A stretch of 64,000 bases of DNA from Hydrogenophaga sp. (lineage in GTDB: Bacteria; Pseudomonadota; Gammaproteobacteria; Burkholderiales; Burkholderiaceae_C). Both the position numbers and the translations under genes were made by a program. The number at the start of each line of letters is the position of its first letter. Within the stretch, counting starts at the first letter, position 1. The stretch covers positions 1-64,000 of the forward strand of contig NZ_JAHVAB010000065.1 in assembly GCF_019264445.1 (NCBI RefSeq), read 5' to 3'. Shown here piece by piece: positions 34,170 through 48,957 of this stretch. Below the pieces are notes generated by a model that did not search any database, was not told the origin of the DNA, and saw only the letters and a program-made list of their open reading frames with translations.

Positions 34170-34958
34170 TTACGGGGTGGGCGCTGCGGCGCCTGTCGCC
34201 CAGCGCAGGTCTGTCACCCAGCCCTGGCTGGCGCTGGCGGTGTTGTCGCTGTCGGCGCCCAGCAGCACGCGTGTGACCGCCGGTGCAAGGGCTCGTGGCG
34301 TGGCGCTGCCCTGGGGCAGTTCATCGGCAAAGAGATCGATCATGTCCTGTGCCACGTCGCGCGACTCGCTCACCCAGCGGCCCAATGGCGCGCTGCGCCC
34401 CTGCAGGCTGATGTAGCGCACCCGCTTGGTGTAGGGGTTGGCGCCCTGGGTGAAGGCGGGGTGGGTGCTGTCCCACACGTAGCACAGCGTGGCCGCCGGC
34501 AGCGCCTCACCGCTCACGCTGCGCGCGATGCGCAGCACCGAGCGCTCCACAAAGGGCACGCGGTCCAGCGCGTGGTCGAACATCACGCAGACCTTGAGCG
34601 CGGCGTCGTCGCCCGCCTTGGTCAGGATGTCGGCCGGGGCGCTGCCGCCAGAGAGCGGCTGGTCCAGCCGCCAGCGCCATTGCAGCCGCGCCGGCGCGGG
34701 GCCGCGCCAGTCCTGCACGAGCGTGCCGTAGCTGGCCTCGGTGCGCACCTGCACGGCGCGCGTGTCATCGATGACGCCGGCGTCGAAGCGGGTGGGTGCA
34801 ATGCGGGCCTGCTGCTTGGGAAAGCCCACGAAGCGCCACGCCGGGTTGAGCGTGCCGTCGGCTTGCAGCAAGGGCGCCAGCGCAGGCGGGGTTTGCGCCT
34901 GCAGGGCGGCCGCAGCGCTCAGCGCCAGCACCAGTGCGAGTGAGCGGGGCGCTTTCAT
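34170..34958 (-). CDS. DUF3047-domain exported protein
   Basis: Predicted periplasmic protein of 262 residues with a signal peptide ending near ALQAQ. It matches DUF3047 by WRWRLDQPL, KAGDDAALKVCVMFD, LPAATLCYVWDST and GRWVSESRDVAQDMIDLF. The function is unknown. Its ATG overlaps the stop of the upstream TVP38-flavoprotein gene by four bases (ATGA), so the two are translationally coupled, and the FAD oxidoreductase follows 9 bases later. Such coupling suggests these three act in one process, probably in or at the cell envelope. Confidence 0.82.
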   Translation of the reverse strand: MKAPRSLALVLALSAAAALQAQTPPALAPLLQADGTLNPAWRFVGFPKQQARIAPTRFDAGVIDDTRAVQVRTEASYGTLVQDWRGPAPARLQWRWRLDQPLSGGSAPADILTKAGDDAALKVCVMFDHALDRVPFVERSVLRIARSVSGEALPAATLCYVWDSTHPAFTQGANPYTKRVRYISLQGRSAPLGRWVSESRDVAQDMIDLFADELPQGSATPRALAPAVTRVLLGADSDNTASASQGWVTDLRWATGAAAPTP

Positions 34959-37165
34959 TGGCGCTTCCAGTCGTGGTAGCGACGCACCCAGGCCAGCAGC
35001 CGCTGGGGTGCGTGCGCGCGTTTCCATTCGCCGGCCGCGTACTTGTTGGCTTCGGCCAGCGTGGGGTAGGTGTGCAGGGTGCCCAGGATCTTGTTCAGGC
35101 CCAGGCCGTGCTTCATGGCGAGCACGTACTCGGCGAGCAGGTCGGCCGCGTGGGTGCCGACGATGGTCACGCCGAGGATGGTGTCTTTCCCCGGTGGCGT
35201 GAGCACTTTCACGAAGCCCCGCGCTTCGCCGTCGGCAATGGCGCGGTCGAGGTCGTCAATGCCGTAGCGCGTCACCTCGAAAGCCACGCCCTGCGCTTTG
35301 GCGTCCTGTTCGCTCAGGCCCACGCGCGCCACTTCGGGGTCGACAAAGGTGGCCCAGGGAATCACGCGGTGGTCGACCTTGAAGCGGCGGAACTCGCCAA
35401 ACAGGGCGTTGACCGTGGCGTACCAGGCCTGGTGCGCCGCGACGTGGGTGAACTGGTAGGGGCCTGCCACATCGCCCGCGGCGTAGATGTTGGGATAGAT
35501 CGTCTGCAGGTATTCGTTGGTGTCCACGGTCTTGTGCGTGGGAATGCCGAGTTCTTCGAGGCCGTAGCCGCTCAGGCGCGCGCTGCGGCCCAGCGCGCAG
35601 ATGAGCTCGTCAAACACGATGCGCTGTTCGACGCCGTGGTGGCTCACCACGAGCACCTTGTCGTTGCCGTCGCGCTCGCAGCGCAGGGCCTGGTGGTCGG
35701 TGCGCACCTCCACGCCGTCGGCCTGCAGGGCCTGGCGCACCGCCGCGCTCACGTCTTCGTCTTCGCGCAGCATCAGGCGTGGCGCCATCTCCACCTGTGT
35801 CACCTGCGAGCCCAGCCGGGCAAAGGCCTGCGCGAGTTCGCAGCCAATCGGCCCGCCACCGAGCACCAGCAGGCGGCGGGGCACTTCATCGAGCTGGCCG
35901 AAGCGCTCCCACAGGGTGTCGCTGGTCACGTAGCCGCTGTCTTCCAGGCCGGGCAGCGGGGGCACCAGCGGGCGAGCGCCCGCGGCAATGACGATGCTGC
36001 GCGCGGTGAGCACCTGGGTGCCCCCATCGTTGAGCGCGATCTCCACCGTCCAGGGGTTGGTGAGCCGGGCGTGGCCTTGCAGCACCTCCACGCCCAGACC
36101 GGTGTAGCGCTCCACGCTGTCGTGCGGTTCGATGGCGCGAATCACCGCCTCGATGCGCTGCATCACGGCCCTGAAGCTGAACGCGGGTTCGGTGGCGCTC
36201 AGGCCGAACTGCCCGGCGTGGCGCATCTGGTGCGCGAGCTTGGCGCTGCGGATCAGCGCCTTGCTGGGCACGCAGCCGTAGTTCAGGCAGTCACCGCCCA
36301 TCTTGTGCGCTTCGACCAGCGTCACCTTGGCCTTCACCACCGCCGCGATGTAGGCCGACACCAGGCCGCCCGCGCCCGCGCCGATCACGATGAGGTTGCG
36401 GTCAAACGAGCGGGGCTTGGCGCTGCGCCAGCGCGCATACACCTGCCGGCGCTGCACGAACTGGATCACCCAGCGCGCCAGCAGGGGGAAGAGCCCGAGC
36501 AACACAAAAGAGCCCAGCAGCGCAGGGCTCAGGATGCCCTGCAGCGAGTCCAGCCGACCGAGCTGCGTGCCGGCGTTCACGTACACCACCGTGCCCGCCA
36601 GCATGCCGAGCTGGCTCACCGCGTAAAAGGTGCGGGCCTTCATGGTGGTCAGGCCCATCACGAGGTTGATCACGAAGAACGGCACCACCGGAATGAGCCG
36701 CAGCGTGAACAGGTAAAACGCCCCGTCTTTCTCGATGCCCCGGTTCACATCGGCCAGGCGCGGGCCAAAGCGCGCCTGAATGCTGTCGCGCAACAGGTAG
36801 CGCGCCACCAGAAAGGCCAGCGTGGCGCCCACGCTCGAGGCAAACGACACCAGCACCGTGCCCCAGAAGAGGCCGAAGAGCGCGCCGCCCGCCAGGGTGA
36901 TGAGCGTGGCGCCTGGCAACGACAGCGCGGTGGCCGCCACATAGATCGCAAAATACGCCAGCGCCACCTGCAGCGGTGAGCGCGCGGTCAGCTCGGCCAG
37001 CGTGGCCTGGCTTTGCTGCAGGTACGACAGACTGAGGAAGCGACCCAGATCGAAAGCGAAGAAGGCCGCGATGCCCAACAGCACTGCCACGAGCAGCAAG
37101 ATTTTGCGAAGGTTCACGACAGTTCCAGTGGAGGGCATGCGGGTCGGTCGACCGATCTCGGGCAT
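34955..37165 (-). CDS. TVP38/TMEM64 (VTT) domain fused to dihydrolipoamide-dehydrogenase-like flavoprotein
   Basis: A 736-residue fusion. Residues 1 to ~240 are an inner-membrane VTT domain (about six segments; signature LRLIPVVPFFVINLVMGLTT). From about residue 250 follows a complete FAD disulfide oxidoreductase with VIGAGAGGLVSAYIAA, the redox pair GGDCLNYGCVPSK, NAD motif VLGGGPIGCELAQAF, IYAAGDVAG and the C-terminal dimer region LGTLHTYPTLAEANKYA. It resembles mercuric reductase and Lpd, but the substrate is unknown. The start at 37165 follows an AAGGAAGG site; 37138 is an alternative. The fused layout is known in other bacteria. Confidence 0.85.
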   Translation of the reverse strand: MPEIGRPTRMPSTGTVVNLRKILLLVAVLLGIAAFFAFDLGRFLSLSYLQQSQATLAELTARSPLQVALAYFAIYVAATALSLPGATLITLAGGALFGLFWGTVLVSFASSVGATLAFLVARYLLRDSIQARFGPRLADVNRGIEKDGAFYLFTLRLIPVVPFFVINLVMGLTTMKARTFYAVSQLGMLAGTVVYVNAGTQLGRLDSLQGILSPALLGSFVLLGLFPLLARWVIQFVQRRQVYARWRSAKPRSFDRNLIVIGAGAGGLVSAYIAAVVKAKVTLVEAHKMGGDCLNYGCVPSKALIRSAKLAHQMRHAGQFGLSATEPAFSFRAVMQRIEAVIRAIEPHDSVERYTGLGVEVLQGHARLTNPWTVEIALNDGGTQVLTARSIVIAAGARPLVPPLPGLEDSGYVTSDTLWERFGQLDEVPRRLLVLGGGPIGCELAQAFARLGSQVTQVEMAPRLMLREDEDVSAAVRQALQADGVEVRTDHQALRCERDGNDKVLVVSHHGVEQRIVFDELICALGRSARLSGYGLEELGIPTHKTVDTNEYLQTIYPNIYAAGDVAGPYQFTHVAAHQAWYATVNALFGEFRRFKVDHRVIPWATFVDPEVARVGLSEQDAKAQGVAFEVTRYGIDDLDRAIADGEARGFVKVLTPPGKDTILGVTIVGTHAADLLAEYVLAMKHGLGLNKILGTLHTYPTLAEANKYAAGEWKRAHAPQRLLAWVRRYHDWKRQ

Positions 37166-37216
37166 TCTTACACCCTTCCTTTTTCCACCGCGACCGCACC
37201 ACCCAGGACCCTGCGC

Positions 37217-38275
37217 TTGAGCCCCCACGACGATGTGATTCCCCGCCTGCGCCAGGCGCTGCAGGCCGCTGGCCATCCGCACGCCCTGGCCGCGCTGGAG
37301 CGCCTGCCCGACAAAGGCCTGGCGCACGACCATTTGCGCCTGGTGGGCAGCGGCGTGCTCGCGCGCATCCCCAAGCAGAGCCAGATGGGCTGGGCCGCCG
37401 CCGACAACCTGGCCTACCAGCGCGCGTGCTTCGAGCGCGCGGCCGCTGGCGGGCATGCCCCGGTCTGCCATGGTGTTTTGCCACCTTCTGCGCCGCTGCC
37501 GCGCGGTGCGCTGCTGGTGCAGGCCATCGAAGGCCGCACGGCCCGCCTGCCGGCCGACCTGGGCGCCGTGGCCCGTGCGCTGGCCGCGCTGCACGCCTTG
37601 CCCGTGCCCGAGTCCGCGCAGCGCGCACCCTTGCTGGACCCACCCGATCCGCTGCGCGCGCTCTGCGAAGAGATCGCCATCCAGGCCGGCCACCTGGCTG
37701 CGGCCGGGCTGGCGCCGGCGGTGGCGCGCCGCATCGATGCCGAAGGGCAGCGGCTGCAGAAGCGGGTGGCCAGCCACGGGCGGCCAACCGTCCACCTGAT
37801 CGCCTTCGACGCCCACCCCGGCAACTTCATCGTGCAGCCCGATGGCCGCGCGGTGCTGGTGGACCTGGAGAAATGCCGCTACGGCTACCCGGGCCTCGAT
37901 CTCGCCCACGCCACGCTCTACACCTCCACCACCTGGGATGTGGACAGCCACGCCGTGCTCACGCCCGGGCAGGTGGTCGCGTTCTACCGCGACTGGGCGC
38001 AGGCGGTGGGCCCGGTGGCCGCTGCTGCGCAGGCCTGGCACCTGCCGCTGCGCCGCGCCATGTGGTTGTGGTCGGTCACGTGGTGCGCCAAATGGCGCGT
38101 GACGTCGGGAGCGCGCGCCAGCGCCACGGCAGACGGCGAAGACTGGTCCGGCGAACACAGCGACGCGGCGCTGGTGGCGCATGTGCGCGAGCGCGTGGAC
38201 CACTACCTCAGCGCGGCCGTGGTAAGCCGGGTGATCGACGAATTCGCTGAACTCGAAAGGGAATGGTCCGCATGA
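37217..38275 (+). CDS. Aminoglycoside-phosphotransferase-fold kinase of unknown substrate
   Basis: Predicted small-molecule kinase of about 352 residues. The catalytic loop is IAFDAHPGNF, where the usual HxD histidine is alanine but the aspartate and asparagine remain, followed by the metal-binding LVDLEKCRYG in place of DFG. The start is uncertain: TTG at 37217 lies behind an AGGA site and GTG at 37235 is also possible, since no ATG fits and the open frame upstream overlaps the divergent fusion gene. Its stop overlaps the next ATG (ATGA), tying it to the glycosyltransferase fusion. The substrate may be the product of that enzyme. Confidence 0.75.
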   Translation: MSPHDDVIPRLRQALQAAGHPHALAALERLPDKGLAHDHLRLVGSGVLARIPKQSQMGWAAADNLAYQRACFERAAAGGHAPVCHGVLPPSAPLPRGALLVQAIEGRTARLPADLGAVARALAALHALPVPESAQRAPLLDPPDPLRALCEEIAIQAGHLAAAGLAPAVARRIDAEGQRLQKRVASHGRPTVHLIAFDAHPGNFIVQPDGRAVLVDLEKCRYGYPGLDLAHATLYTSTTWDVDSHAVLTPGQVVAFYRDWAQAVGPVAAAAQAWHLPLRRAMWLWSVTWCAKWRVTSGARASATADGEDWSGEHSDAALVAHVRERVDHYLSAAVVSRVIDEFAELEREWSA

Positions 38276-39573
38276 CGGCTCTTTCCATCGTGATGCCCGC
38301 GCTCAACGAGGCCGCCACGCTGGCCGCCCGGCTGCAGGCGCTCGCGCCCTGGCGCGCACGCGGTGCCGAGCTGATCGTGGTGGACGGTGGCAGCACCGAC
38401 GGCACGCCCGCCGTGGCGCAGGCGCATGCCGACCGCGTGCTGCAGGCCCCTCGAGGCCGTGCCTCGCAGCTCAATGCCGGCGCCTGCGCCGCCCGCGGCG
38501 AGGTGCTGCTCTTCCTGCACGCCGACACGCAGCTGCCGCCCGAGGCCGATCGCCGCATTCACGAAGCCTTGGCGGCGGGCCACGACTGGGGGCGTTTTGA
38601 CGTGCGCATCGAGGGCCGCCACCCGCTGTTGCCGCTGGTGGCTGGCCTCATGAACCTGCGCTCGCGCTGTAGCGGCATCGCCACCGGCGACCAGGCGATC
38701 TTTGTGCGGCGTCGCGTGTTCGAAGCGCTCGGCGGATGTGCGCCGCTGCCCCTGATGGAGGACATCGACCTGAGCCAGCGCCTGCTGCGCGTGGGCCCAC
38801 CCGCCTGCCTGCGCGAGCGCGTGCTCACCGCCGGGCGGCGCTGGGACCAGCACGGCTTCTGGCGCACCGTGCTGCTCATGTGGCGGCTGCGCGCGGCCTG
38901 GGCGCTGGGGGCCGACGCCGAACAGCTGGCACGCCGCTACGGCTACGCCCCGCGCGCGAGCGCGGCGGTGGCGGTGCTGGCCAAGGCGCCCGTGCCCGGC
39001 CTGGCCAAGACACGGCTCATGCCGGCGCTCGGCGCGGCCGGTGCCGCCCGCGCACAACGCGGGTTTGCTCTGCAGACGCTGGCCACCGCGCGCGCCGCCA
39101 GCACGGGCGCGCTCACGCTGTGGTGCGCACCCGATGCGGGCCACCGCTTCTTTCGCGCGCTGCAGCAGCGCCATGGCGTGGCGCTGGTGAGCCAGCCCCA
39201 GGGCGATCTTGGCCACCGCATGGCCACCGTCATGGCCACCCACTTCGCCCACACGCCCCAGCGCGCGCTCCTGATCGTGGGCACCGATTGCCCGGTGCTC
39301 ACCCCGGCGCACCTGCAACAGGCGGCCGATGCGCTGCAGTCACACGACGCCGTGCTGATTCCGGCCGAAGACGGCGGCTACGTGCTGATCGGCCTGCGAC
39401 GGCCCCTGCCCGAGGTGTTCGAGGGTGTGGAATGGAGCACGCGGCGCGTGCTGGCCCAGACCGAGGCGCGGCTGCACGCGGTGGGTGCGTCGTGGCAGGT
39501 GCTGCCTGCCTTGTGGGACGTGGACGAGCCGGCCGACTGGCGGCGGTGGCAGGCGCTCAGATCATTGAGATAG
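38272..39573 (+). CDS. Fused GT2 glycosyltransferase and DUF2064 transferase (rSAM/selenodomain-associated transferases 2 and 1)
   Basis: A 433-residue bifunctional protein. The N-terminal half (about 1-225) is a family-2 glycosyltransferase with VVDGGSTDGTPAV, GRASQLNAGACAARGEVL, FLHADT and PLMEDIDLSQRLL. The C-terminal half (about 228-433) is a DUF2064/CofC-like nucleotidyl- or glycosyl-transferase domain with VLAKAPVPGLAKTRLMPALG, LIVGTDCPVLTPAHL and EDGGYVLIGLRRP. These two families were named for co-occurrence with radical-SAM and selenium genes; no product is proven. Translationally coupled to the kinase gene upstream. Confidence 0.85.
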   Translation: MTALSIVMPALNEAATLAARLQALAPWRARGAELIVVDGGSTDGTPAVAQAHADRVLQAPRGRASQLNAGACAARGEVLLFLHADTQLPPEADRRIHEALAAGHDWGRFDVRIEGRHPLLPLVAGLMNLRSRCSGIATGDQAIFVRRRVFEALGGCAPLPLMEDIDLSQRLLRVGPPACLRERVLTAGRRWDQHGFWRTVLLMWRLRAAWALGADAEQLARRYGYAPRASAAVAVLAKAPVPGLAKTRLMPALGAAGAARAQRGFALQTLATARAASTGALTLWCAPDAGHRFFRALQQRHGVALVSQPQGDLGHRMATVMATHFAHTPQRALLIVGTDCPVLTPAHLQQAADALQSHDAVLIPAEDGGYVLIGLRRPLPEVFEGVEWSTRRVLAQTEARLHAVGASWQVLPALWDVDEPADWRRWQALRSLR

Positions 39574-40776: not shown

Positions 40777-41382
40777 TCAGCGAAAGCGCTGGTAACCCCA
40801 GACGATGCGCAGCGCAGTGGTGATGGCGCACAGCGCCGCAAAGCCATAGGCGATCTGCGGGAACCACGCCGGCCACAGGCACATGGCGACGAAGGCGGCC
40901 AGTGTCTCGGTGGCTTCGGTCAACCCACCCAGAAAGTAGAAGCCCTTGTCGGGGAAGTCGTGGGACTGCAGGCCCCGCTGGGCCGCGACGATGGCGAAGG
41001 CCAGGAAGCTGCTGCCCGTGCCGATGAAGCTGGCGAGCAGCACCGCGGCGGGCAGGGCGTTGCGGCTGGGGTCTGCCAGGGCAAAGGCCAGGGGAATGGA
41101 CGCGTAGAACAGAAAGTCGAGCGTGATGTCGAGGAAGCTGCCGCGGTCGGTGGGCTGTGTGGCGCGCGCGACCGCACCGTCCAGCCCGTCCATGAGGCGC
41201 GAGAGCAGCAGCAGCGCCAGGCCGACCAGCGGGCGACCCAGCGCAATCGCGGTGGCGGCGGCCAGCCCGAGGCCAAAGCCGATGAAGCTCAGGGCGTTGG
41301 CGTTCAGGCCCAGGCGCACCAGCGCGCTGGCCACGCGCGAGAGCAGTGGCTTGAGTGCGGTGTGCAGGGTGCGGTCAAGCAT
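40777..41382 (-). CDS. ynjF: CDP-alcohol phosphatidyltransferase, YnjF-like
   Basis: Inner-membrane enzyme of 201 residues that would transfer a phosphatidyl (or similar) group from a CDP-linked donor to an alcohol. The active-site motif D-G-x2-A-R-x8-G-x3-D-x3-D is complete in DGAVARATQPTDRGSFLDI followed by TLD. The acceptor alcohol is unknown. Gene order ynjB-ynjC-ynjD-ynjF matches part of the E. coli ynj operon. Its ATG lies 8 bases inside the end of the ATPase gene, so it is translationally coupled to the transporter. Confidence 0.83.
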   Translation of the reverse strand: MLDRTLHTALKPLLSRVASALVRLGLNANALSFIGFGLGLAAATAIALGRPLVGLALLLLSRLMDGLDGAVARATQPTDRGSFLDITLDFLFYASIPLAFALADPSRNALPAAVLLASFIGTGSSFLAFAIVAAQRGLQSHDFPDKGFYFLGGLTEATETLAAFVAMCLWPAWFPQIAYGFAALCAITTALRIVWGYQRFR

Positions 41383-42007
41383 GGCCGAGGGCCATCACCT
41401 GCGCCGGGTCGGCGATGTCGGCGGCGTCGTGCGTCACCAGCACGGCCGGGATCTGCCGCGCGCGCAGGTGCCCGAACACGAACGCACGGAACTGCTCGCG
41501 CAGCGCGGCGTCCAGGCGCGAGAACGGCTCGTCGAGCAGCAAGGCGCGCGGCTGGGCGAGCAGCGCGCGCATCAGGGCCACGCGCGCACGCTGGCCACCC
41601 GAGAGGGTGGCCGGGTCGCGCGGGCCGAAACCCGCCAGGCCGGCTTCCTGCAGCGCGCGTTCCACGGCGGCGTCGCGCTCGCGCGCAGGGCCGGCGGGCA
41701 CGGCGAACCGCAGGTTTTCGGCCACCGTCATGTGTGCAAACAGCAGGTCGTCCTGAAACAGCAGGCCGATGCCGCGCTGTGCGGTGGGCAGGTGGGTGAG
41801 GTCATGGCCGTCCAGCGCCACGGTGCCTTCGAAATGCAGGGCTTCGCGGTCGAGCGTGCCAGCGATGGCGGCCAGCACCGTGCTCTTGCCGCAGCCGCTG
41901 GGCCCCATGAGCGTGAGGATCTGGCCGCTCTCCACGCTCAGGCGCAGGTGCTGCACCAGGGTGTGCTGGCGCGTGGCCAGGCGCTGGATGTGCACGGACA
42001 AGGTCAT
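41375..42007 (-). CDS. ynjD: ABC transporter ATP-binding protein, YnjD-like
   Basis: ATPase of 210 residues: Walker A GPSGCGKST, Q-loop LLFQDDLLF, signature LSGGQRARVALMRAL, Walker B LLLDEPFSRLD and H-loop VTHDAAD. The QDDLLFAHMTVAENL and signature variant resemble YnjD and thiamine-type ATPases (ThiQ). The ATG at 42007 overlaps the permease stop by four bases; the open frame further upstream is shadow. It should energise the YnjC-like permease. Confidence 0.87.
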   Translation of the reverse strand: MTLSVHIQRLATRQHTLVQHLRLSVESGQILTLMGPSGCGKSTVLAAIAGTLDREALHFEGTVALDGHDLTHLPTAQRGIGLLFQDDLLFAHMTVAENLRFAVPAGPARERDAAVERALQEAGLAGFGPRDPATLSGGQRARVALMRALLAQPRALLLDEPFSRLDAALREQFRAFVFGHLRARQIPAVLVTHDAADIADPAQVMALGHA

Positions 42008-43650
42008 GCAGGCGCCCATGTGAATCGGCGCGGGCGACCCAGCCAGGCCGCCAGCGCAAAGACCAGCACCGGCAGGGCGATCTGCAGGCCGGCGTACGCG
42101 CTGGTGAGCGAGCGCTGCCCGCCCGAGGCGAGCGTGACCGCTTCGGTGGTGACGCTGGAAAAACGGCCGGCGCCGAGGTAGAGCGTGGGCAGGTACTGCG
42201 CCACGCTCACCGCAAAGCCCACAGCCGCCGCCGAGGCCAGCGAGCGGCGCAGCAGCGGCCATTTCACGCGCCACAGAAAGCGCACGGGGCCATGACCCAG
42301 GCTCGCGTTGAGCTGTGCGTAGCGCGCATCAAAACCGAGGTACGCCGGGCTGAGCGCCAGCAGCACATACGGCAGCACCATGAGCGTGTGCGCCAGCAGC
42401 AGGCCGCTGGCCTGTCCTTCGAGCTGCAGCTGCAGGCCCACGCGGTACAAGCCCACCACCCACAGCACGGCGGGCAGCACCAGCGGCAGGTAGAGCACGG
42501 GGCGTACGGCCCGGTCCCAGCGGCGCGGCGCCACCTCCAGCCACGCCACGCTCCACACCAGCGCAATGGCGCTGCTGCCGCCGGCCAGCCACAGGGTGGT
42601 CCAGGCGGTCTGGCTGCTGTGTGCCACCTGCGCCCAGGCCGCCAGCGTCCAGGACTGTGGCCATACCTCGGGGAAGGCCCACACGCCACTTACGCTGCCC
42701 ACCGCCAGCGCGAGCAGCACGGCGGCGTAAAAGCCCGTGAGCAACCACAGGTCTGCATGCAGGGGCAAGCCAGCGCCGGTGGCGGCACGCCCGCGCTGCC
42801 CGCGCCCTTGTGCAAGCGCATGGCGCCACACGCGTTGCGCGCCCAGCCATGCCGCGCTGCACACCAGCACCAGCAGCGCCAGCCACACACCGGCGGCGGC
42901 CCCTTGCGCATAGGTGGCGGGGTCCACGTCCTGCAGCCATTGCCACGCCTGCACGGCCAGGGTGGGGGGTGCGGCGGGGCCGATGACCAGGGCCATGTCC
43001 ACCACCGTAAGGCCATAAGCCAGCACCGCGAGCAGTGGCCAGCGCAGGCGCACCGCCAGCTGCGGCCAGAGCACCAGCCAGAATGCGCGCTGCGGCGAGT
43101 AGCCCAGCGTCTGCGCCAGTGCATGCTCGGCGCGCCAGCGCTGGCGCACGTCGTCGCGCTGCAGCTGGGTGGCGGCGGTCCACAGCAGAAAGGGAATTTC
43201 CTTGGCCACCAGCGCCAGGATCAGTCCCAGGCCCCACGGGTCTTGCGTGGTGGGCCACGGCGGGGGTTGGTCAAAGCCGGTGAGCCAGGGCGAAAACACG
43301 CGCAGCAGCCAGCCGCTGGGCGAGAGCAGAAACAACAGGCCGATGGCCAGCGCCGCGTGGGGCGTGGCCAGCATCACCGGCAAGCCGCGCAGCAGGCGCG
43401 CCAGACCCTGGCGCACAAACCCCTGCGCCAGCAGCGCGGCGGCGCCCCACCAGGCCAGCAGGGTGGCGATCAGGCCCGTCCAGAGCGTGAGGGCCAGGGC
43501 CTGCCACAGCGCAGGGGTCTGGACCAACGCGCGCCACGCCTCGGGCTGGCTGCCGCTGTGGAGCGCCGCCAGCGCGGTCCACACCATGGGCACGGCCACC
43601 AGCGCCAGCAGCGCCGTGGCGGCGGACGCTCGAAGACGATGGGCCGACAC
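42004..43650 (-). CDS. ynjC: Fused double-domain ABC transporter permease, YnjC-like
   Basis: Inner-membrane protein of 548 residues containing two consecutive permease domains of the thiamine/iron/polyamine import type. There are about twelve membrane segments; EAA-like loops are visible near AEHALAQTLGYSPQRAFWLV and NASLGHGPVRFLWRVKWPLL. The fused layout and order binding protein-permease-ATPase match E. coli YnjBCD, whose substrate is unknown. It starts 4 bases past the ynjB stop. Confidence 0.87.
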   Translation of the reverse strand: MSAHRLRASAATALLALVAVPMVWTALAALHSGSQPEAWRALVQTPALWQALALTLWTGLIATLLAWWGAAALLAQGFVRQGLARLLRGLPVMLATPHAALAIGLLFLLSPSGWLLRVFSPWLTGFDQPPPWPTTQDPWGLGLILALVAKEIPFLLWTAATQLQRDDVRQRWRAEHALAQTLGYSPQRAFWLVLWPQLAVRLRWPLLAVLAYGLTVVDMALVIGPAAPPTLAVQAWQWLQDVDPATYAQGAAAGVWLALLVLVCSAAWLGAQRVWRHALAQGRGQRGRAATGAGLPLHADLWLLTGFYAAVLLALAVGSVSGVWAFPEVWPQSWTLAAWAQVAHSSQTAWTTLWLAGGSSAIALVWSVAWLEVAPRRWDRAVRPVLYLPLVLPAVLWVVGLYRVGLQLQLEGQASGLLLAHTLMVLPYVLLALSPAYLGFDARYAQLNASLGHGPVRFLWRVKWPLLRRSLASAAAVGFAVSVAQYLPTLYLGAGRFSSVTTEAVTLASGGQRSLTSAYAGLQIALPVLVFALAAWLGRPRRFTWAPA

Positions 43651-43654
43651 GGTG

Positions 43655-44869
43655 TCAGGCGCCGTAGCGCTGGGCCCAGGCTTTCTCCAGAGGGTCGACC
43701 CACGACGCGTGCGGCTCGGGCAGCGTGGGTGCCGGGCTCTTCACCAACCCCGGCAGTTGCCCGGTGCCAAAGAGGGCGCGCTCGGGTGCGGGCAGGCGCG
43801 CCACGTCCAGCACGGTGGGGTCGCCCCAGTGGGCAATGTCGGCCTTGCGCGCCTGTGCGGCGGGCGAGAGCAGGAAGTTGGCCACGACCTGCGCACCGGC
43901 CCGGGCGCGTGCGTTGTATGGAATCGCCACGAAGTGCGTGTTGCCGATCGTGCCCTTCTCAAACTGCCAGCTCACCACCGTGGCGGGCAGGCGTTTGGCG
44001 GCGATCTCGTTGGCGGCTTCGTTCGGGTTGAAGGTGATGGCCAGCAGCAGCTCGCCGTCGGCCATCATCTGGCGCACGGCAGCCGCGTTCAGCGGGAACT
44101 GCTTGCCGCCGCGCCACAGGTGCGGGCGCAGGGCGTCCAGGAAGGGCCAGAGCGGGGCGGTCTGCGCTGCAAAGGTGGCGTCGGTGACGGGCTTGGCGAG
44201 GGCCTGGCGGTCCGGGGCGAATTCGACCAAGGCCTGCTTGATGAAGGTGGTGCCGTGAAAGTCGGGCAGGCGCGGGTGCGTGATGCGCCCGGGCTGGCTG
44301 CGCGCCAGGGCCAGCAGCGCCTGCATGCTCTGCGGTGGCTGGGGCAGGCGCTTGCTGTCGGCAAACAGGGTGAACTGCGCCATGCCCCAGGGCGATTCCA
44401 TGCCTTCGGTCGGCACGGAAAAGTCGTTGAGCGTGGTGGGCTTGCCGGCGGTGTCGACCCAGCGGAAGTTGGGCTGTGCCTCGGCCCACGGGCCAAACAG
44501 CAAGCCCTCGCGTTTCATGGCGGCGAAGTTCTCGCCGTTGATCCACACCAGGTCCACCGTGCCTTCACCGGCGGCGCGGCCGGCGGCTTTTTCGGCGCGC
44601 ACGCGCTTGACCACGTCGGCGGTGTCGGTGATCTTGACGTGCTGCAAGGTGATTCCGTGCGCGCCTTTCACCTGCTGCGCCACCCACTGCAGGTAGGCGT
44701 TGGTCTGCTCGCTGCCGGCCCACGCGTTCCAGTAGACGGTCTGGCCGCGGGCCGCTTTCTCGACCTCGGCCCAGGGCGCGCTGGCCTGGGCCCACACCGA
44801 TGGCAGTGCGGTGCCGCCCGCGGCGAGCAGCAGGTGGCGTCGGGTGAGGTGGGGCAGGTGTGGGGGCAA
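43655..44869 (-). CDS. ynjB: ABC transporter periplasmic binding protein, YnjB-like
   Basis: Periplasmic binding protein of 404 residues. A twin-arginine-like signal (TRRHLLLAAGGTALPSVWA) precedes the mature part, which has VYWNAWAGSEQTNAYLQWVA, DLVWINGENFAAMKREGLLF and GDPTVLDVARLP. The TGxN-like NGENF and overall pattern fit YnjB. The start is TTG at 44869, supported by a GGAGA site; there is no ATG or GTG alternative. It begins 33 bases after the DoxX gene of the bufferin operon on the same strand. The ligand is unknown. Confidence 0.83.
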   Translation of the reverse strand: MPPHLPHLTRRHLLLAAGGTALPSVWAQASAPWAEVEKAARGQTVYWNAWAGSEQTNAYLQWVAQQVKGAHGITLQHVKITDTADVVKRVRAEKAAGRAAGEGTVDLVWINGENFAAMKREGLLFGPWAEAQPNFRWVDTAGKPTTLNDFSVPTEGMESPWGMAQFTLFADSKRLPQPPQSMQALLALARSQPGRITHPRLPDFHGTTFIKQALVEFAPDRQALAKPVTDATFAAQTAPLWPFLDALRPHLWRGGKQFPLNAAAVRQMMADGELLLAITFNPNEAANEIAAKRLPATVVSWQFEKGTIGNTHFVAIPYNARARAGAQVVANFLLSPAAQARKADIAHWGDPTVLDVARLPAPERALFGTGQLPGLVKSPAPTLPEPHASWVDPLEKAWAQRYGA

Positions 44870-44902: not shown

Positions 44903-45394
44903 TTAGTTCAAGGCCATGCCGCGTGCACGCGCGCGGTCAAGCCGGGGATGGAGCCATGCACAGTCCAGCGACCATTTGCCCAGGCCGTGGATCGCCAGCG
45001 CGGCCAGCAGCACGCCCCAGGTGATGTGCTGCTGCAGCGCGGCGGGGGCGATCTCGGCCAGGCTGATCACCGCCACCACGTTCACCACCGACAGACCCAG
45101 CGCCGCAAACCGGCCGGCCAGGCCCAGCAAGAGCAGCACGGGCAGCACCAGCTCGCCGGTGGTGCCCGCGATGGCGGCAACCTCGGGCGGGAGCAGGGGC
45201 ACGTGGTATTCCTCGGTAAACAGCAGGATCGTGGTGTCCCAGTCGCGCACCTTGGTCAGGCCGGCCAGAAAGAAGGCTTGCGCGAGGTACACGCGCGCGG
45301 CCAGTGCGGCAGCGGGTTGCGCGAGGTCGAGGGCATGGGTGACCCGCTGCCAGAGGGCCAGGCCGCGCTGCAGGAGGGAAGGGCTCGAGTTCAT
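44903..45394 (-). CDS. DoxX-family membrane protein of the bufferin operon
   Basis: Inner-membrane protein of 163 residues with four membrane segments and the DoxX pattern RVYLAQAFFLAGLTKVRDWDT and GELVLPVLLLLGLAGRFAALG. DoxX proteins are a common fourth gene in bufferin and related MNIO operons; their part there, perhaps quinone-linked redox, is unclear. Its ATG overlaps the bufC stop by four bases (ATGA). A much longer open frame upstream is antisense-type shadow of bufC. Confidence 0.87.
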   Translation of the reverse strand: MNSSPSLLQRGLALWQRVTHALDLAQPAAALAARVYLAQAFFLAGLTKVRDWDTTILLFTEEYHVPLLPPEVAAIAGTTGELVLPVLLLLGLAGRFAALGLSVVNVVAVISLAEIAPAALQQHITWGVLLAALAIHGLGKWSLDCAWLHPRLDRARARGMALN

Positions 45395-46236
45395 GGGGTT
45401 TCCTTGTGGGGTGATGGGGTGTGCGAGGCGGCGGGGTGTGCGTCGATCACGCCGAGCAACAGGCCTTGTTGCACGGCTTGGGCGAGCCAGGTGGCGAGGT
45501 CGAGTTCGTGGTCTTGCGAGGCGATGGCGTCCAAGGCTTCGGGCAGCGATGCGCCGCCCAGCGTCGCCTGCAACAGCGTGGCCTCGGCGCGCGTGCAGGC
45601 ACGCATGCAGGGGCGCAGGCCCTGGCGCCAGACCACGGCAGATTCGCCCACGCCGTCGCGCAGGCGTTCGGCCGCTTGTTGCAGGCTGGGCGGGGTGTCG
45701 CCGTGCAGGTCTGCATCGGTCGGGCGGTGCGCGCCCACCAGACTCGCCACAGGCCATGGGCTGGTGAACACCGCCGTGCCGGGCGCCAGGCGCAGGGCCA
45801 GGTGCTGCGGGTCTTCGCTGCTCAGGCGCGCAAAGCTGGCGGTGTCCAGGTCGGCATCGGGTGCGCCGGCGGCGCGGTGCAGGGCCCATTCGATATGGGC
45901 CACATCGGCCAGGTAGGGCAGGTCGGTGAGCTGCGGGTGCCGCTGCAGAAAGCCGGGCAGCGCGTCGCCCCAGTGCGCCAGATCGCCGCGCGTGGGTGGG
46001 TGCTGGTGCCAGAGTTCGCGCGCCAGCGGCGCCAAGTTCTCGTCGCCCAGCAGTTGGGCCATCACTGGATAGGTGGTGCGCAGCGAACGCTCGGCCAGCG
46101 CGTGGCCGTTGGCGCGGTAGGCCATCAGGCCGCGTCCGGTGTGGGGTTGGAGCCAGGCATCGAGAGCGGGGCACACGCCCGGCTGCGTGAAGAGCGCTTC
46201 CAGCAGGGCTTGCTGTTGGTGGGCGAGCGCGGTCAT
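45391..46236 (-). CDS. bufC: BufC-like DUF2063 partner protein
   Basis: Partner protein of an MNIO enzyme, 281 residues. The N-terminal DUF2063 domain carries [20 protein letters not shown] and the aromatic/acidic stretch [18 protein letters not shown] typical of BufC/HvfC/MbnC-like partners that hold the precursor leader. The C-terminal part is a PqqD/RRE-like variable domain. It overlaps the bufB stop by four bases, as expected for a stable BufB-BufC complex. The role is inferred from the studied family, not from direct evidence here. Confidence 0.87.
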
Positions 46237-47129
46237 GCGGGCACCGCCTCACGCGCGAGCGCTGCGCTCGCGTGTTGCCGCGCGGTGGCGGCTTCGTCCA
46301 GCAGCACAGGGAGCGCGGGCAGGTCCGTGTCCCATTCGATCAGCGAGGGCACAGCGCCAAAGCGCTGCAAGGCGTGTCGGTAGAGCGACCAGACATCGGC
46401 GCACACGCGGCTGCCGTGGTCGTCGATGACGATGTCGCCGCAGTCCACGTGGCCGGCCAGATGCAGCTCGGCCACCGTGCCCGGCGCGATGGCGTCGAGC
46501 CACTGGCGGCCACTTGCCATGGGGTTTGCGTGCGCGTCGTTGAGCGCGTTCACGAAGATGTTGTTCACGTCCACCAGCAGCTGGCAGCCGGTGCGCTGGG
46601 CGAGCGCGTTGAGGAAGGTGGGCTCGTCCATGTCGGCCACGCGCCAGCGCAGGTAGGCCGAGAGGTTTTCCACGGCGATGGGACGGCGCAGGCGGTCTTG
46701 TACGCGCTGCACGTTGGCGCACATGGTGTCGAGCGCCTCGCGGGTGAAGGGCGAGGGCAGCAGGTCCGACGCATGCAATGCCGCGCCGCCGGGCAGCACG
46801 CCGCGCGCAAAGCTGGCGTGGTCGCTCACGCGCACGGGTTCGATGTCGTGCACCAGCGCGGCGAGGTGCTCCAGGTGCCAGGGGTCGATGCCCTGTGCCG
46901 AGCCGAGCGAAAGCCCCACGCCGTGCAGGCTGATGGGGTAGCGTTCGCGGCCCTGGCGCAGCACCGCACGGGCGGCACCGCCGGGGGCGAAGAAGTTTTC
47001 GGAATGGACTTCCAGAAAGTCCAGTGCCGGCTGCTGCTCGAGCAGCTCGGCGTCATGGGGGTGCCGCCAGCCGATGCCCGTGGCGCAGGCCTTGGGTGCC
47101 TGTGGGGCGGGCTGTTCGGTGGCGGTCAT
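46233..47129 (-). CDS. bufB: BufB-like DUF692 multinuclear iron oxidative enzyme (MNIO)
   Basis: TIM-barrel iron enzyme of 298 residues that installs oxidative modifications on cysteines of a short precursor. Family metal ligands are visible: E40 and H42 in [11 protein letters not shown]69 in [12 protein letters not shown]103/H104 in VSDHASF, E154 in [11 protein letters not shown]187/N190 in [10 protein letters not shown]223/H227 in ELHLAGH and E265 in IEWDTDLP. It follows bufA by 27 bases and overlaps bufC. In studied bufferin systems BufB converts core cysteines to thiooxazole-type groups that bind copper; that chemistry is inferred here. Confidence 0.92.
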
Positions 47130-47156
47130 GGCGAAGCCGTTGAAAGCTCGACCCGA

Positions 47157-47438
47157 TCAGGACTTCTTCATGCCCATCTTGGCTTCGTCCGCAGTCATGC
47201 CCTTCATTTGCTTGCAGGTGCCGGCGGACACGTACTTCCACTCGCCTTTGTCGTTGTCGACCTTGGCTTGCCCTGCGCACGAGTGTGAGCCGGACAGGTT
47301 GGCGCAATCGTTCTGGCCTGCTTTGGCGATGCCGAAGCATTTTTCCTTGCCCGAGTTCTGCGCCAGGGCGGGGGTGGAGAGCAGGGCCAGCGACATCAGG
47401 GAAGTGGCGGCGGCGGCGATCAGGTGGCGTTGGTTCAT
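47157..47438 (-). CDS. bufA: Bufferin precursor peptide (DUF2282, BufA1-like)
   Basis: Short exported precursor, 93 residues. A Sec signal peptide (about 1-27, ending STPALAQ) precedes a core with four cysteines at 34, 45, 54 and 75 in the DUF2282 pattern: [38 protein letters not shown] and AGTC. Precursors of this type are modified by DUF692 enzymes and bind copper in the periplasm. The Met- and Lys-rich tail ([15 protein letters not shown]) adds further possible soft-metal ligands. The ATG at 47438 is behind AGGAG. It has its own 135-base upstream region. Confidence 0.92.
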
Positions 47439-47532
47439 GGAAAACTCCTGGTGGGTGAAAAAAGAGATGAGAAACATCAACCCGTCGCTTCTTGCCCTTG
47501 GCGGGGAAAAGTCCGGCAGGTTGAGCGTTGGT

Positions 47533-47555
47533 CAGGCCGCGATCGTGTTTCTTAC
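47533..47555 (-). promoter_or_regulatory. Candidate ECF-type promoter upstream of bufA
   Basis: On the minus strand GTAA (47552-47555) is followed, after 18 bases, by GACCAA (GAC at 47531-47533). The same arrangement with identical spacing lies upstream of the neighbouring redoxin gene. It sits about 95 bases from the bufA ATG. Confidence 0.35.
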
Positions 47556-47573
47556 GACGACCGCAAAAAATCT

Positions 47574-48113
47574 TCACAGCAGATCGGCCACGCGATCCCA
47601 CGCTTGTGCGGGCACGCGCCCATGGTGACTTTCCACCACGCGGCCGCTTTTATCAAGCAGGAACAATGCAGGCAGCTGGCCTGTTGGCCCGAAGCTGTGT
47701 TCATGACCGCGTTCGCCCGCCCACAGGGTGGTGAACCGCTGGGAGGCAGGGATGGTGAGCTGAACGAGACGCTGATGCGCCTCGATGGCTGAGCGCGATG
47801 TGTCGGTGCTCACACTCACCAGCTCGAAGGGCTGGCCCTGCCAGCCTTTGACGTTGGCGCGGAGTTCGGGCATCTTGTCTCGGCAGACTGCGCAGTCGGT
47901 GGACCAGAACAACACCATCACGACCTTGCCGCGCAGTCGGGCAAGGTCAAAAGCCTGTCCATCCAGCGTGGGGCCGCGCAGTTGCGCAGGCGCGGCGGCA
48001 GGCGTGGGCGTTGCGGTTTGGGCCAGCGCGGGCGAAACCTGACGGATCAGGCCCATGCCGAGGGCGAGCCGCAACAGCGAGCGGCGTTGGGTCAAAGCGG
48101 GAGACGGGAACAT
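47574..48113 (-). CDS. TlpA/peroxiredoxin-like exported thiol protein
   Basis: Thioredoxin-fold protein of 179 residues, periplasmic by a twin-arginine-like signal (TQRRSLLRLALGMGLIRQ, cleavage near SPALAQ). The redox motif is WSTDCAVC (CxxC), within the AhpC-TSA/redoxin fold (GKVVMVLFWSTDC, LPALFLLDKSGRVV). An AGGAGG site directly precedes the ATG at 48113. It lies 135 bases upstream of bufA on the same strand and is divergent from the ECF sigma gene. It could keep bufferin or sigma-related thiols in the right redox state; this is inference. Confidence 0.85.
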   Translation of the reverse strand: MFPSPALTQRRSLLRLALGMGLIRQVSPALAQTATPTPAAAPAQLRGPTLDGQAFDLARLRGKVVMVLFWSTDCAVCRDKMPELRANVKGWQGQPFELVSVSTDTSRSAIEAHQRLVQLTIPASQRFTTLWAGERGHEHSFGPTGQLPALFLLDKSGRVVESHHGRVPAQAWDRVADLL

Positions 48114-48136
48114 GAGCACCTCCTGTGGTGCCTTTT

Positions 48137-48161
48137 GTCGTGCCAGGCGCCGCTTCATTAC
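48137..48161 (-). promoter_or_regulatory. Candidate ECF-type promoter upstream of the redoxin gene
   Basis: On the minus strand GTAA (48158-48161) is followed after 18 bases by GACAAA (GAC at 48137-48139). The spacing equals that upstream of bufA. It lies 24 bases before the redoxin ATG, leaving a very short leader, and within the divergent gap to the sigma gene. Confidence 0.35.
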
Positions 48162-48172
48162 ACTCAGCCCCC

Positions 48173-48757
48173 ATGTCCACACCCCCCAACGCCACGTTTG
48201 AACACCAGGTGGCCGATTTGCGTGTGTATTTGCTCAAATTTGCGCGCCTGCAGCTGCGCAACGAGGCCTGGGCCGAAGACGCGGTGTCGGAAACCCTGCT
48301 GGCCGCGCTCAGCAAACCCCAGGCGTTTGAGCAGCGCTCGCAGCTCAAGACCTGGCTGGTGGGCATCCTCAAACACAAGATCATCGACGCCTTGCGCCAC
48401 CACAGCCGTGAGGTGTGTGTGTCCGGCGGCACGGACGACGACCAGGCCGACCCGCTGGAGGACATGGCCTTCAAGGCCGACGGTCACTTTGCCGAGAAGC
48501 CCGCCGAATGGGGCAACCCCGAGCAGGACATGAACAGCCGCCAGTTTTTCGCGGTGCTGGAGGCATGCACCGACAAGCTGCCCGCCGTGCAAGGACGCCT
48601 GTTCCTGATGCGCGAGTGGCTGGAGCTCTCCAGCGAAGACATCTGTAAGGAACTGTCGCTCACGCCGACCAATCTCTACGTCCAGCTCCACCGGGCCCGT
48701 CTGCGCTTGCGCGAGTGCCTGGAGCTCAACTGGTTTGCCCGCCCGTCCACGCCATGA
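48173..48757 (+). CDS. ECF-type RNA polymerase sigma factor
   Basis: Extracytoplasmic-function sigma factor of 194 residues. Region 2 includes LQLRNEAWAEDAVSETLLAA and LKTWLVGILKHKIIDALRHH; region 4 is the helix-turn-helix SSEDICKELSLTPTNLYVQL followed by HRARLRLRECLE. It is divergent from the redoxin-buf genes and overlaps a small zinc-finger gene by four bases, the usual sigma/anti-sigma layout. Bufferin operons elsewhere are under ECF control, so regulation of the buf operon is plausible. The ATG at 48173 is chosen; an upstream in-frame start at 48125 would overlap the divergent gene. Confidence 0.88.
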   Translation: MSTPPNATFEHQVADLRVYLLKFARLQLRNEAWAEDAVSETLLAALSKPQAFEQRSQLKTWLVGILKHKIIDALRHHSREVCVSGGTDDDQADPLEDMAFKADGHFAEKPAEWGNPEQDMNSRQFFAVLEACTDKLPAVQGRLFLMREWLELSSEDICKELSLTPTNLYVQLHRARLRLRECLELNWFARPSTP

Positions 48758-48957
48758 AACCCGTTTATCCCCTTCGCCGCACCTGCAAGGAAGCCAGCGC
48801 CCTGCTGATCGCGCGGGAAGACCGCGCGCTGCCGTGGGTGGAGCGGCTGGCCTTGCGGGTGCACCTGGCCATGTGCCAGGCCTGCCCGCGCTTTGAGCGT
48901 CAGTTGCTGACCATGCGCAACGCCATGGGGCAGTGGCGCCACTACACCGACGAGTAG
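48754..48957 (+). CDS. Small zinc-finger protein, putative anti-sigma factor
   Basis: A 67-residue soluble protein with H-x3-C-x2-C in VHLAMCQACPRFERQL, the core of zf-HC2 anti-sigma domains, and a preceding helix KEASALLIAREDRALPWVE. It lacks a membrane segment, so it would act in the cytoplasm. The ATG overlaps the sigma-factor stop (ATGA), so the two are made together. By analogy with ZAS anti-sigmas, the cysteine pair may sense thiol oxidation or metal and release the sigma factor; this is not shown here. Confidence 0.8.
   Translation: MKPVYPLRRTCKEASALLIAREDRALPWVERLALRVHLAMCQACPRFERQLLTMRNAMGQWRHYTDE

Follow-up and report, generated by a model that had tools for sequence, protein, structure and literature searches.

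In a 64,000-nucleotide stretch of Hydrogenophaga sp. DNA (contig NZ_JAHVAB010000065.1, assembly GCF_019264445.1; the whole stretch is called the window here), a bufA-bufB-bufC-doxX gene set adjoins a gene for an exported redoxin and a divergent pair of genes for an extracytoplasmic function (ECF) sigma factor and a zinc-finger anti-sigma factor. We found that the redoxin is a member of a bufferin-linked family, and that the buf genes behave as a present/absent module between ecf and ynjB, at which an ECF site usually remains. In addition, conserved motifs suggest an ECF-type promoter common to bufA, the redoxin gene, msrPQ, and a VTT-oxidoreductase gene. These points are new here, whereas the four-gene core and the type of sigma/anti-sigma pair are already known kinds. 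The genes of the locus are as follows.

44903..45394, minus strand: doxX, DoxX-family membrane protein (PF07681, 60.5 bits, above the cut-off)
45391..46236, minus strand: bufC, DUF2063 partner (PF09836, 50.9 bits, above the cut-off)
46233..47129, minus strand: bufB, MNIO (DUF692) enzyme (PF05114, 312.6 bits)
47157..47438, minus strand: bufA, DUF2282 (Buf1) precursor of 93 amino acids (PF10048, 86.3 bits; Cys 34, 45, 54, and 75)
47574..48113, minus strand: exported TlpA/ResA-like redoxin with motif CAVCRDKMPELRAN and Pro148 (AhpC-TSA, 53.7 bits)
48173..48757, plus strand: ECF sigma factor (NF009173, 293.6 bits; cut-off, 255)
48754..48957, plus strand: ZAS-type anti-sigma factor of 67 amino acids, with C11/H37/C41/C44 (NF052368, 66.5 bits; cut-off, 50)

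Every gene named in a preliminary description of this DNA, including the sigma/zinc-finger pair and the redoxin, lies where it had been placed and gave strong family matches. All four precursor cysteines are present in BufA, and the 4-base overlaps occur at both the bufB/bufC and the bufC/doxX junctions, while bufA and bufB are spaced by 27 bases. Family models and gene order support the identification of the locus as a Buf1-type bufferin operon, with the chemistry of its peptide predicted. The BufA signal peptide was assigned by eye. His, Asp, Glu, and Asn positions of BufB align with PDB entry 3bww, and we take the aligned residues to be metal ligands. The DoxX protein scored 19.3 bits against MauE, below the cut-off, and both it and BufC fall below the NCBIfam HvfC/HvfX cut-offs.

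The source genome has one MNIO match and one DUF2282 match, and the best BufB identity among named relatives is 77%, Hydrogenophaga loci being the nearest. Related stretches were surveyed as the best 80 of 148, plus 30 family loci, and DUF2282 was matched at 58 places spread over 52 of the 67 genus genomes; the gene set thus recurs far beyond chance. Across the 80 stretches and 30 loci, ecf and the zinc-finger gene lie divergently ahead of bufA in 31 loci, 24 of them without a redoxin match, in genera including Tibeticola, Rhodoferax, Aquabacterium, Curvibacter, and Sphaerotilus.

Linkage of the redoxin to the buf genes

The redoxin matches listed in the 67 genus genomes number 58, of which 30 score at least 120 bits and 28 at most 61 bits. 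Each of the 30 stronger matches is followed, on its own strand and 206 to 305 bp downstream, by a DUF2282 domain, and none of the 28 weaker ones has such a domain within 2 kb on its strand. When a profile of 29 redoxin sequences was run against 399 family genomes, 62 places in 59 genomes were matched at E of 1e-25 or below. Among the 61 places examined (G083:C344 was left out, and one was judged by MNIO position), 32 copies are linked to buf genes, across 23 genus codes, a spread that led us to discard the idea of a Hydrogenophaga-only insertion. The linked gene is mostly upstream of bufA (2.1 kb upstream in L397), and is also found between bufA and bufB (L380 and L382) and after doxX (L398). 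On a quick tree of 84 redoxin copies, built from few columns and omitting L357 and L384 because they lack the searched CxxC pattern, the linked/unlinked state changes 7 times versus 23.9 times in shuffles, and at least three of the changes are forced by well supported branches. These results indicated that the linkage is old and has been made or broken several times. A wide protein search also gave 1,461 proteins at E of 1e-15 or below, 120 of them listed. As a separate observation, L384 holds a family redoxin relative that has no CxxC pair and is unlinked to buf.

The AlphaFold2 model of the redoxin adopts a thioredoxin fold (mean predicted local distance difference test score, 86.6), and its Foldseek matches are TlpA/ResA-type thioredoxins, including the TlpA-ScoI mixed disulfide complex 4txo, in which the partner of TlpA is the copper chaperone ScoI. 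The fold, the CxxC pair, and the conserved Pro, all present in the redoxin, are common to TlpA/ResA proteins. However, the redoxin differs from them in a CAVC motif followed by a conserved RDKMxELRAN and in scoring 48 bits against the NCBIfam TlpA and ResA models, far under the cut-offs of 230 and 170. Residues invariant in an alignment of the window's protein with 28 relatives (L209, whose frame runs into the next gene, was left out) include W70, C74, V76, C77, R78, M81, E83, R85, A86, N87, and P148. Thus, judged by its modeled fold, the redoxin is a thiol-disulfide protein, and its N terminus, read by eye, marks it as exported. Tat export was rejected as a fixed trait of the family since several orthologues lack the twin Arg.

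Portions of ten papers served as comparison literature throughout (PMC12452194, PMC13097082, PMC10304878, PMC3511200, PMC7907618, PMC3240639, PMC2893595, PMC3420878, PMC8315932, and PMC7464077). In these portions, Buf1 bufferins are described as carrying modified central cysteines plus a disulfide that joins the first and the last cysteine, which makes C34/C75 of BufA the natural candidate for the redoxin. That the bufferin itself is the substrate is a tentative proposal, to which we give somewhat less than an even chance. The exported redoxin, which the preliminary description had called unusual, proved to be the informative feature of the locus, being of a bufferin-linked family and preceded by a predicted ECF-type promoter of its own. 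It may bear on what becomes of a bufferin after export and on why buf genes travel with sulfur-repair genes; tied to buf in 23 genera and under the same predicted type of promoter, it is a candidate post-export maintenance factor.

A predicted ECF-type promoter motif and its candidate regulon

Alignment of the gap between the redoxin gene and bufA revealed the motif GTAAGAA-N15-GACNNA, about 95 to 125 bp ahead of bufA. The predicted sites in the window, together with a further candidate target gene, are listed below.

47528..47555, minus strand: predicted ECF-type promoter of bufA, GTAAGAA-N15-GACCAA (27 of the 29 redoxin loci have this spacing)
48134..48162, minus strand: predicted ECF-type promoter of the redoxin gene, TGTAATGA-N15-GACAAA (25 of 29 redoxin loci; own-genome scan)
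48644..48672, plus strand: ECF-type site inside ecf, pointing at the anti-sigma gene (own-genome pattern scan)
37144..37172, minus strand: predicted ECF-type promoter of the oxidoreductase fusion gene (genome scan and genus conservation)
34955..37138, minus strand: fusion of a VTT domain and a pyridine nucleotide-disulphide oxidoreductase, predicted regulon member

At bufA, the 29 redoxin loci read GTAAGAA in 26 cases and GTAATGC in L213, and L208 and L217 have one extra base in the spacing. The redoxin promoter takes a looser form, scoring at least 9 in 25 of the 29 loci (not in L207, L213, L218, and L221), and base-shuffled control loci gave 8 matches of that score in 222,475 bases. The own genome was scanned with two exact patterns, other spacings or bases being outside their scope. 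GTAAGAA-N15-GACNNA gave 4 matches and 1 in the reversed control; TGTAAKRA-N15-GACNNA also gave 4, of which 3 are in the window and 1 is before msrP, and again 1 in the reversed control. Together, the patterns pick out bufA, the redoxin gene, the site inside ecf, the VTT-oxidoreductase fusion, and msrP, as well as an antisense match within an open reading frame (C56:87211) that was taken as chance. A scan for sigma-70-type sites yielded none. The msrP product scored 474.7 bits against an NCBIfam cut-off of 207, and an MsrQ-like reading frame, judged by eye, follows the gene. The oxidoreductase joins a VTT-type membrane domain to a flavin adenine dinucleotide (FAD) oxidoreductase resembling MerA, RclA, and lipoamide dehydrogenase. 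Its orthologue in three genus genomes (G212, G213, and G243) matches with one internal TGA.

The position weight matrix used in the wider scans was trained on genus bufA sites, so that counts at those sites are dependent, whereas those at msrP, the oxidoreductase, ynjB, and in other genera are independent. A genus site was called at a score of at least 12 with one base of spacer play; all promoter counts are raw, without correction for relatedness, and several of the genomes that lack an ECF match or buf are incompletely assembled. Of the 67 genus genomes, 56 have an ECF match, which reaches at least 180 bits in 54 and is only of a weaker type in 2 (162 to 167 bits). The scan covered the oxidoreductase gene in 39 of 51 genomes, msrP in 61 of 63 genus genomes, and msrP in the best 29 of 53 other family genomes with a match. 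Among ECF-bearing genus genomes, the site precedes the oxidoreductase gene in 32/36 (reverse strand, 0/39) and msrP in 40/51 (reverse strand, 0/61). In other genera, it precedes msrP in 16 of 29 genomes from 29 genera (reverse, 0/29), namely, 13/19 with an MNIO match versus 3/10 without. Family bufA genes have the site in 22 of 25 cases. At family redoxins, sites of at least 12 occur upstream of 12/28 linked and 10/28 unlinked copies (reverse, 0/56). In L190 (G239), an intact ECF-type bufA site and a buf operon occur in a genome with no ECF match, and the ECF gene may be absent from the assembly.

Taken together, these conserved motifs point to an ECF regulon for envelope copper/oxidant stress, which we consider probable. 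The predicted motif yields a short list of co-regulated genes that would link copper chelation to methionine repair, and promoter signals common to buf, redoxin, and methionine-repair genes suggest a coordinated envelope defense. The preliminary description had the parts of the locus right; it had missed the motif, the predicted regulon (msrPQ, the VTT-oxidoreductase, and ynjBC), the site inside ecf, and the module behavior.

The site inside ecf spans the codons for CKELSLTPTN in the region-4 helix-turn-helix. Over 71 ecf genes, 66 encode the Cys of the motif with TGT, whereas 53 use TGC for the other conserved Cys. The motif Lys is AAG in all 65 genes that have Lys there, and at least 66 of the 71 have CG as the last two bases of the codon ahead of Thr, be the residue Pro, Ser, Ala, or Thr, which is the strongest synonymous excess in a 43-codon stretch. 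Since two off-motif codons (AGC at 13 and CTG at 9) are constrained too and relatedness is uncorrected, this evidence is suggestive, not proof, of a candidate promoter for the anti-sigma gene. If true, it would be a compact feedback design. The last 4 bases of ecf also belong to the anti-sigma reading frame, whose C11/H37/C41/C44 equal the RsrA positions given in the MseR paper; a PDB search with the anti-sigma protein gave no matches. As this small soluble zinc-finger gene is present in 32 of the 37 surveyed loci that have an ECF match and its product resembles MseR and HrsE (67 amino acids), its description as unusual was not borne out, and we dropped it as an oddity.

Proposed mechanism, known systems, and alternative explanations

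In the mechanism that we infer, a cytoplasmic, zinc- or thiol-sensitive ZAS anti-sigma factor would hold the ECF factor until stress allows the latter to fire at GTAAGAA-N15-GACNNA promoters of bufABC-doxX(-ynjBCD), the redoxin gene, msrPQ, and the VTT-disulfide oxidoreductase gene, while the site inside ecf would drive the anti-sigma gene as negative feedback. BufB and BufC would turn the two central cysteines of BufA into thiooxazoles; the peptide would then be exported through Sec and serve as a copper chelator in the periplasm. Methionine sulfoxides would be reduced by MsrPQ, and periplasmic cysteines would be the target of the redoxin, with the outer C34/C75 pair of the bufferin as the most attractive candidate.

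Parts of this scheme have counterparts in the comparison literature. The Buf1 bufferin/captophorin clusters (PMC12452194 and PMC13097082) share with the window the four-cysteine DUF2282 precursor, MNIO, DUF2063, and DoxX genes, and a nearby ECF factor; here, by comparison, a redoxin with its own predicted ECF-type promoter is linked, the anti-sigma factor is of the ZAS type instead of NrsF, and the operon probably runs into ynjBCD. In Cupriavidus metallidurans, the copper- and gold-induced gigPABT with rpoQ and rsqA comprises the same four genes plus an ECF and an anti-sigma gene, but its anti-sigma factor is predicted to be membrane bound and the region described has no redoxin. Neisseria SigE-MseR controls its own DoxX-containing operon and msrAB, and in Haemophilus, RpoE2-HrsE governs msrAB together with a gene group that includes DoxX. 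In both, a small cytoplasmic ZAS anti-sigma factor follows the sigma gene, as in the window, and the regulon combines a DoxX-containing operon with a methionine sulfoxide reductase, which resembles our prediction. The Neisseria -35 element GTMAGBWTT resembles GTAAGAA; however, these systems use MsrAB rather than MsrPQ, with a different -10 element (CGTCTAAH) and spacing. Unlike ours, the Neisseria sigma gene lies inside the operon and is autoregulated; a promoter of that kind ahead of the sigma gene, the SigE-MseR trait, was not found in the 29 redoxin loci, and the window shows the candidate internal site instead. Caulobacter SigF, with NrsF, puts DUF2282/DUF692/DUF2063/DoxX operons and YedY (MsrP) under one ECF factor, much like the arrangement predicted here, but it is an ECF16 factor with a membrane anti-sigma factor, the promoter GTAACC-N16-CGAA, and eight described genes without a redoxin. 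By analogy, Hydrogenophaga appears to follow the ECF logic of the Neisseria, Haemophilus, and Caulobacter systems with a ZAS pair and MsrPQ, adding the redoxin and the disulfide oxidoreductase.

Several results weigh against the reading of a bufferin operon served by a redoxin under one ECF factor. BufB scored 309.7 bits against the NCBIfam MNIO_BufB equivalog (NF050167), 0.3 bits short of the cut-off of 310. A redoxin stands beside 30 of the 58 genus DUF2282 places and is missing from the other 28, which indicates that bufferins are generally not dependent on it. Genomes without an ECF match still carry the site at msrP (5/10) and at the oxidoreductase gene (2/3); the msrP sites are strong in G224 and G258 and have core-base substitutions in G227, G238, and G242, so that they fit decay after ECF loss only in part. 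The site is absent from 13 of the 29 family msrP genes, and none of the 29 redoxin loci showed a site ahead of ecf in the ecf direction. In C. metallidurans, where RpoQ control of gig is assumed, deletion of rpoQ is reported to have raised gig expression, and no RpoQ-dependent gig promoter was demonstrated.

The ECF-like sites at unlinked redoxins, nearly as frequent as at linked ones, belong among these points, for they fit a general repair role. The redoxin could belong to the same ECF regulon as a general repair or reductant protein of the periplasm that never touches the bufferin, its place next to bufA simply reflecting the convenience of the ECF divergon as a site, and we rate this explanation only just short of an even chance. 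The many buf loci without a redoxin and the same motif at the unlinked msrP agree with it, as do the unlinked sites themselves (score of at least 12; reverse, 0/28). Yet no genus match above 61 bits lies away from bufA, other genera place the gene off the divergon, between bufA and bufB or after doxX, and the linked copies cluster on the quick tree. An ordinary bufferin cluster with the redoxin as a functionless chance neighbor would agree with the bufferin landscape paper, in which additional conserved genes appear in extremely low proportions only and whose main text names no thioredoxin, redoxin, or TlpA; nevertheless, the complete linkage in the genus, the 23 genera, the three positions, and the predicted ECF-type promoter already disfavor this idea, which we hold to be very improbable.

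The BufA tail bears on a further alternative, in which a Met/Lys/Asp-rich tail makes the bufferin a sacrificial chlorine sink as well, like MrpX, with MsrPQ recycling it. Peptides of the MrpX type, together with MsrPQ and controlled by an ECF16 sigma factor, are described in the comparison literature, msrP carries the common promoter motif, and long MMKKDD-type tails after the last Cys occur in 7 of the 30 redoxin-bearing genus orthologues (L225, L217, L208, L227, L221, L212, and L216). Of five long-tailed proteins compared with the MxKDx repeat family, one reached E 4e-4 and two others about E 0.13, but two had no match and every match was below the family cut-off of 41 bits. Furthermore, the tail of the window's BufA is short and the protein matched no family in the comparison with TIGR02953 (MxKDx repeat peptide). 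Nor are long tails bound to the redoxin: they occur in 0 of 11 genus orthologues without it, yet L012, from Rhodoferax, is long-tailed and has none, for which reason we rejected such a tie. We consider a chlorine sink improbable. The preliminary description, sound on the bufferin identity, had been mistaken in singling out the Met/Lys-rich tail, as it had with the zinc-finger gene, since genus orthologues typically have a short tail (median, 18 residues). Returning to the redoxin-served bufferin, the full combination, in which one ECF factor governs an actively serviced peptide whose thiooxazoles hold copper, whose remaining cysteines are reset by the redoxin and whose Met-rich tail by MsrPQ, and an anti-sigma promoter within region-4 codons self-limits the response, is itself unlikely as a whole. 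Apart from these proteins, a second, remoter bufA type (about 70 bits), with a tail like GFGQL...FKEK, is present in L174, L182, L188, L189, L191 to L196, and others, with a different ECF alongside in some genomes.

Module behavior of the buf genes and the downstream run

Past doxX, the window continues with the following genes, of which those from ynjB onward are a probable continuation of the operon.

43655..44869, minus strand: ynjB-like ATP-binding cassette (ABC) solute-binding protein (NF008633, 511.5 bits), 33 bp after doxX
42004..43650, minus strand: ynjC-like ABC permease (weak ABC permease matches; synteny)
41375..42274, minus strand: ynjD-like ABC ATPase, start uncertain (PF00005)
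40777..41382, minus strand: CDP-alcohol phosphatidyltransferase, distal gene of the run (PF01066)

In nine of the genus genomes with an ECF match, DUF2282 gave none. In 14 loci around ecf without an adjacent bufA, the zinc-finger gene accompanies ecf in all 14, ftsY is present in 13, and ynjB is directly beside ecf in 8. An ECF site precedes ynjB in six of these eight, with scores of 14.3 to 26.9 (not in L407 and L418). No ynjB was found in the other six, of which L419 ends at ecf; a site lies beside ecf in L413 and L415 to L417, and the gene that follows it in L417 resembles, by eye, the CDP-alcohol phosphatidyltransferase of the window. Among genus loci that carry buf and are long enough to include ynjB, 19 of 31 have it after doxX, as do 2 of 28 buf-bearing loci from the best-80 set (L028 and L035), four of the 28 being titled Hydrogenophaga. 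The buf-less loci and the positions of ynjB indicated that buf, with or without the redoxin, behaves as a module flanked by the ECF locus and the ynj genes. Between the phosphatidyltransferase and oxidoreductase genes, a fused TIGR04283/TIGR04282 arsenosugar-type glycosyltransferase gene lies at 38263-39573.

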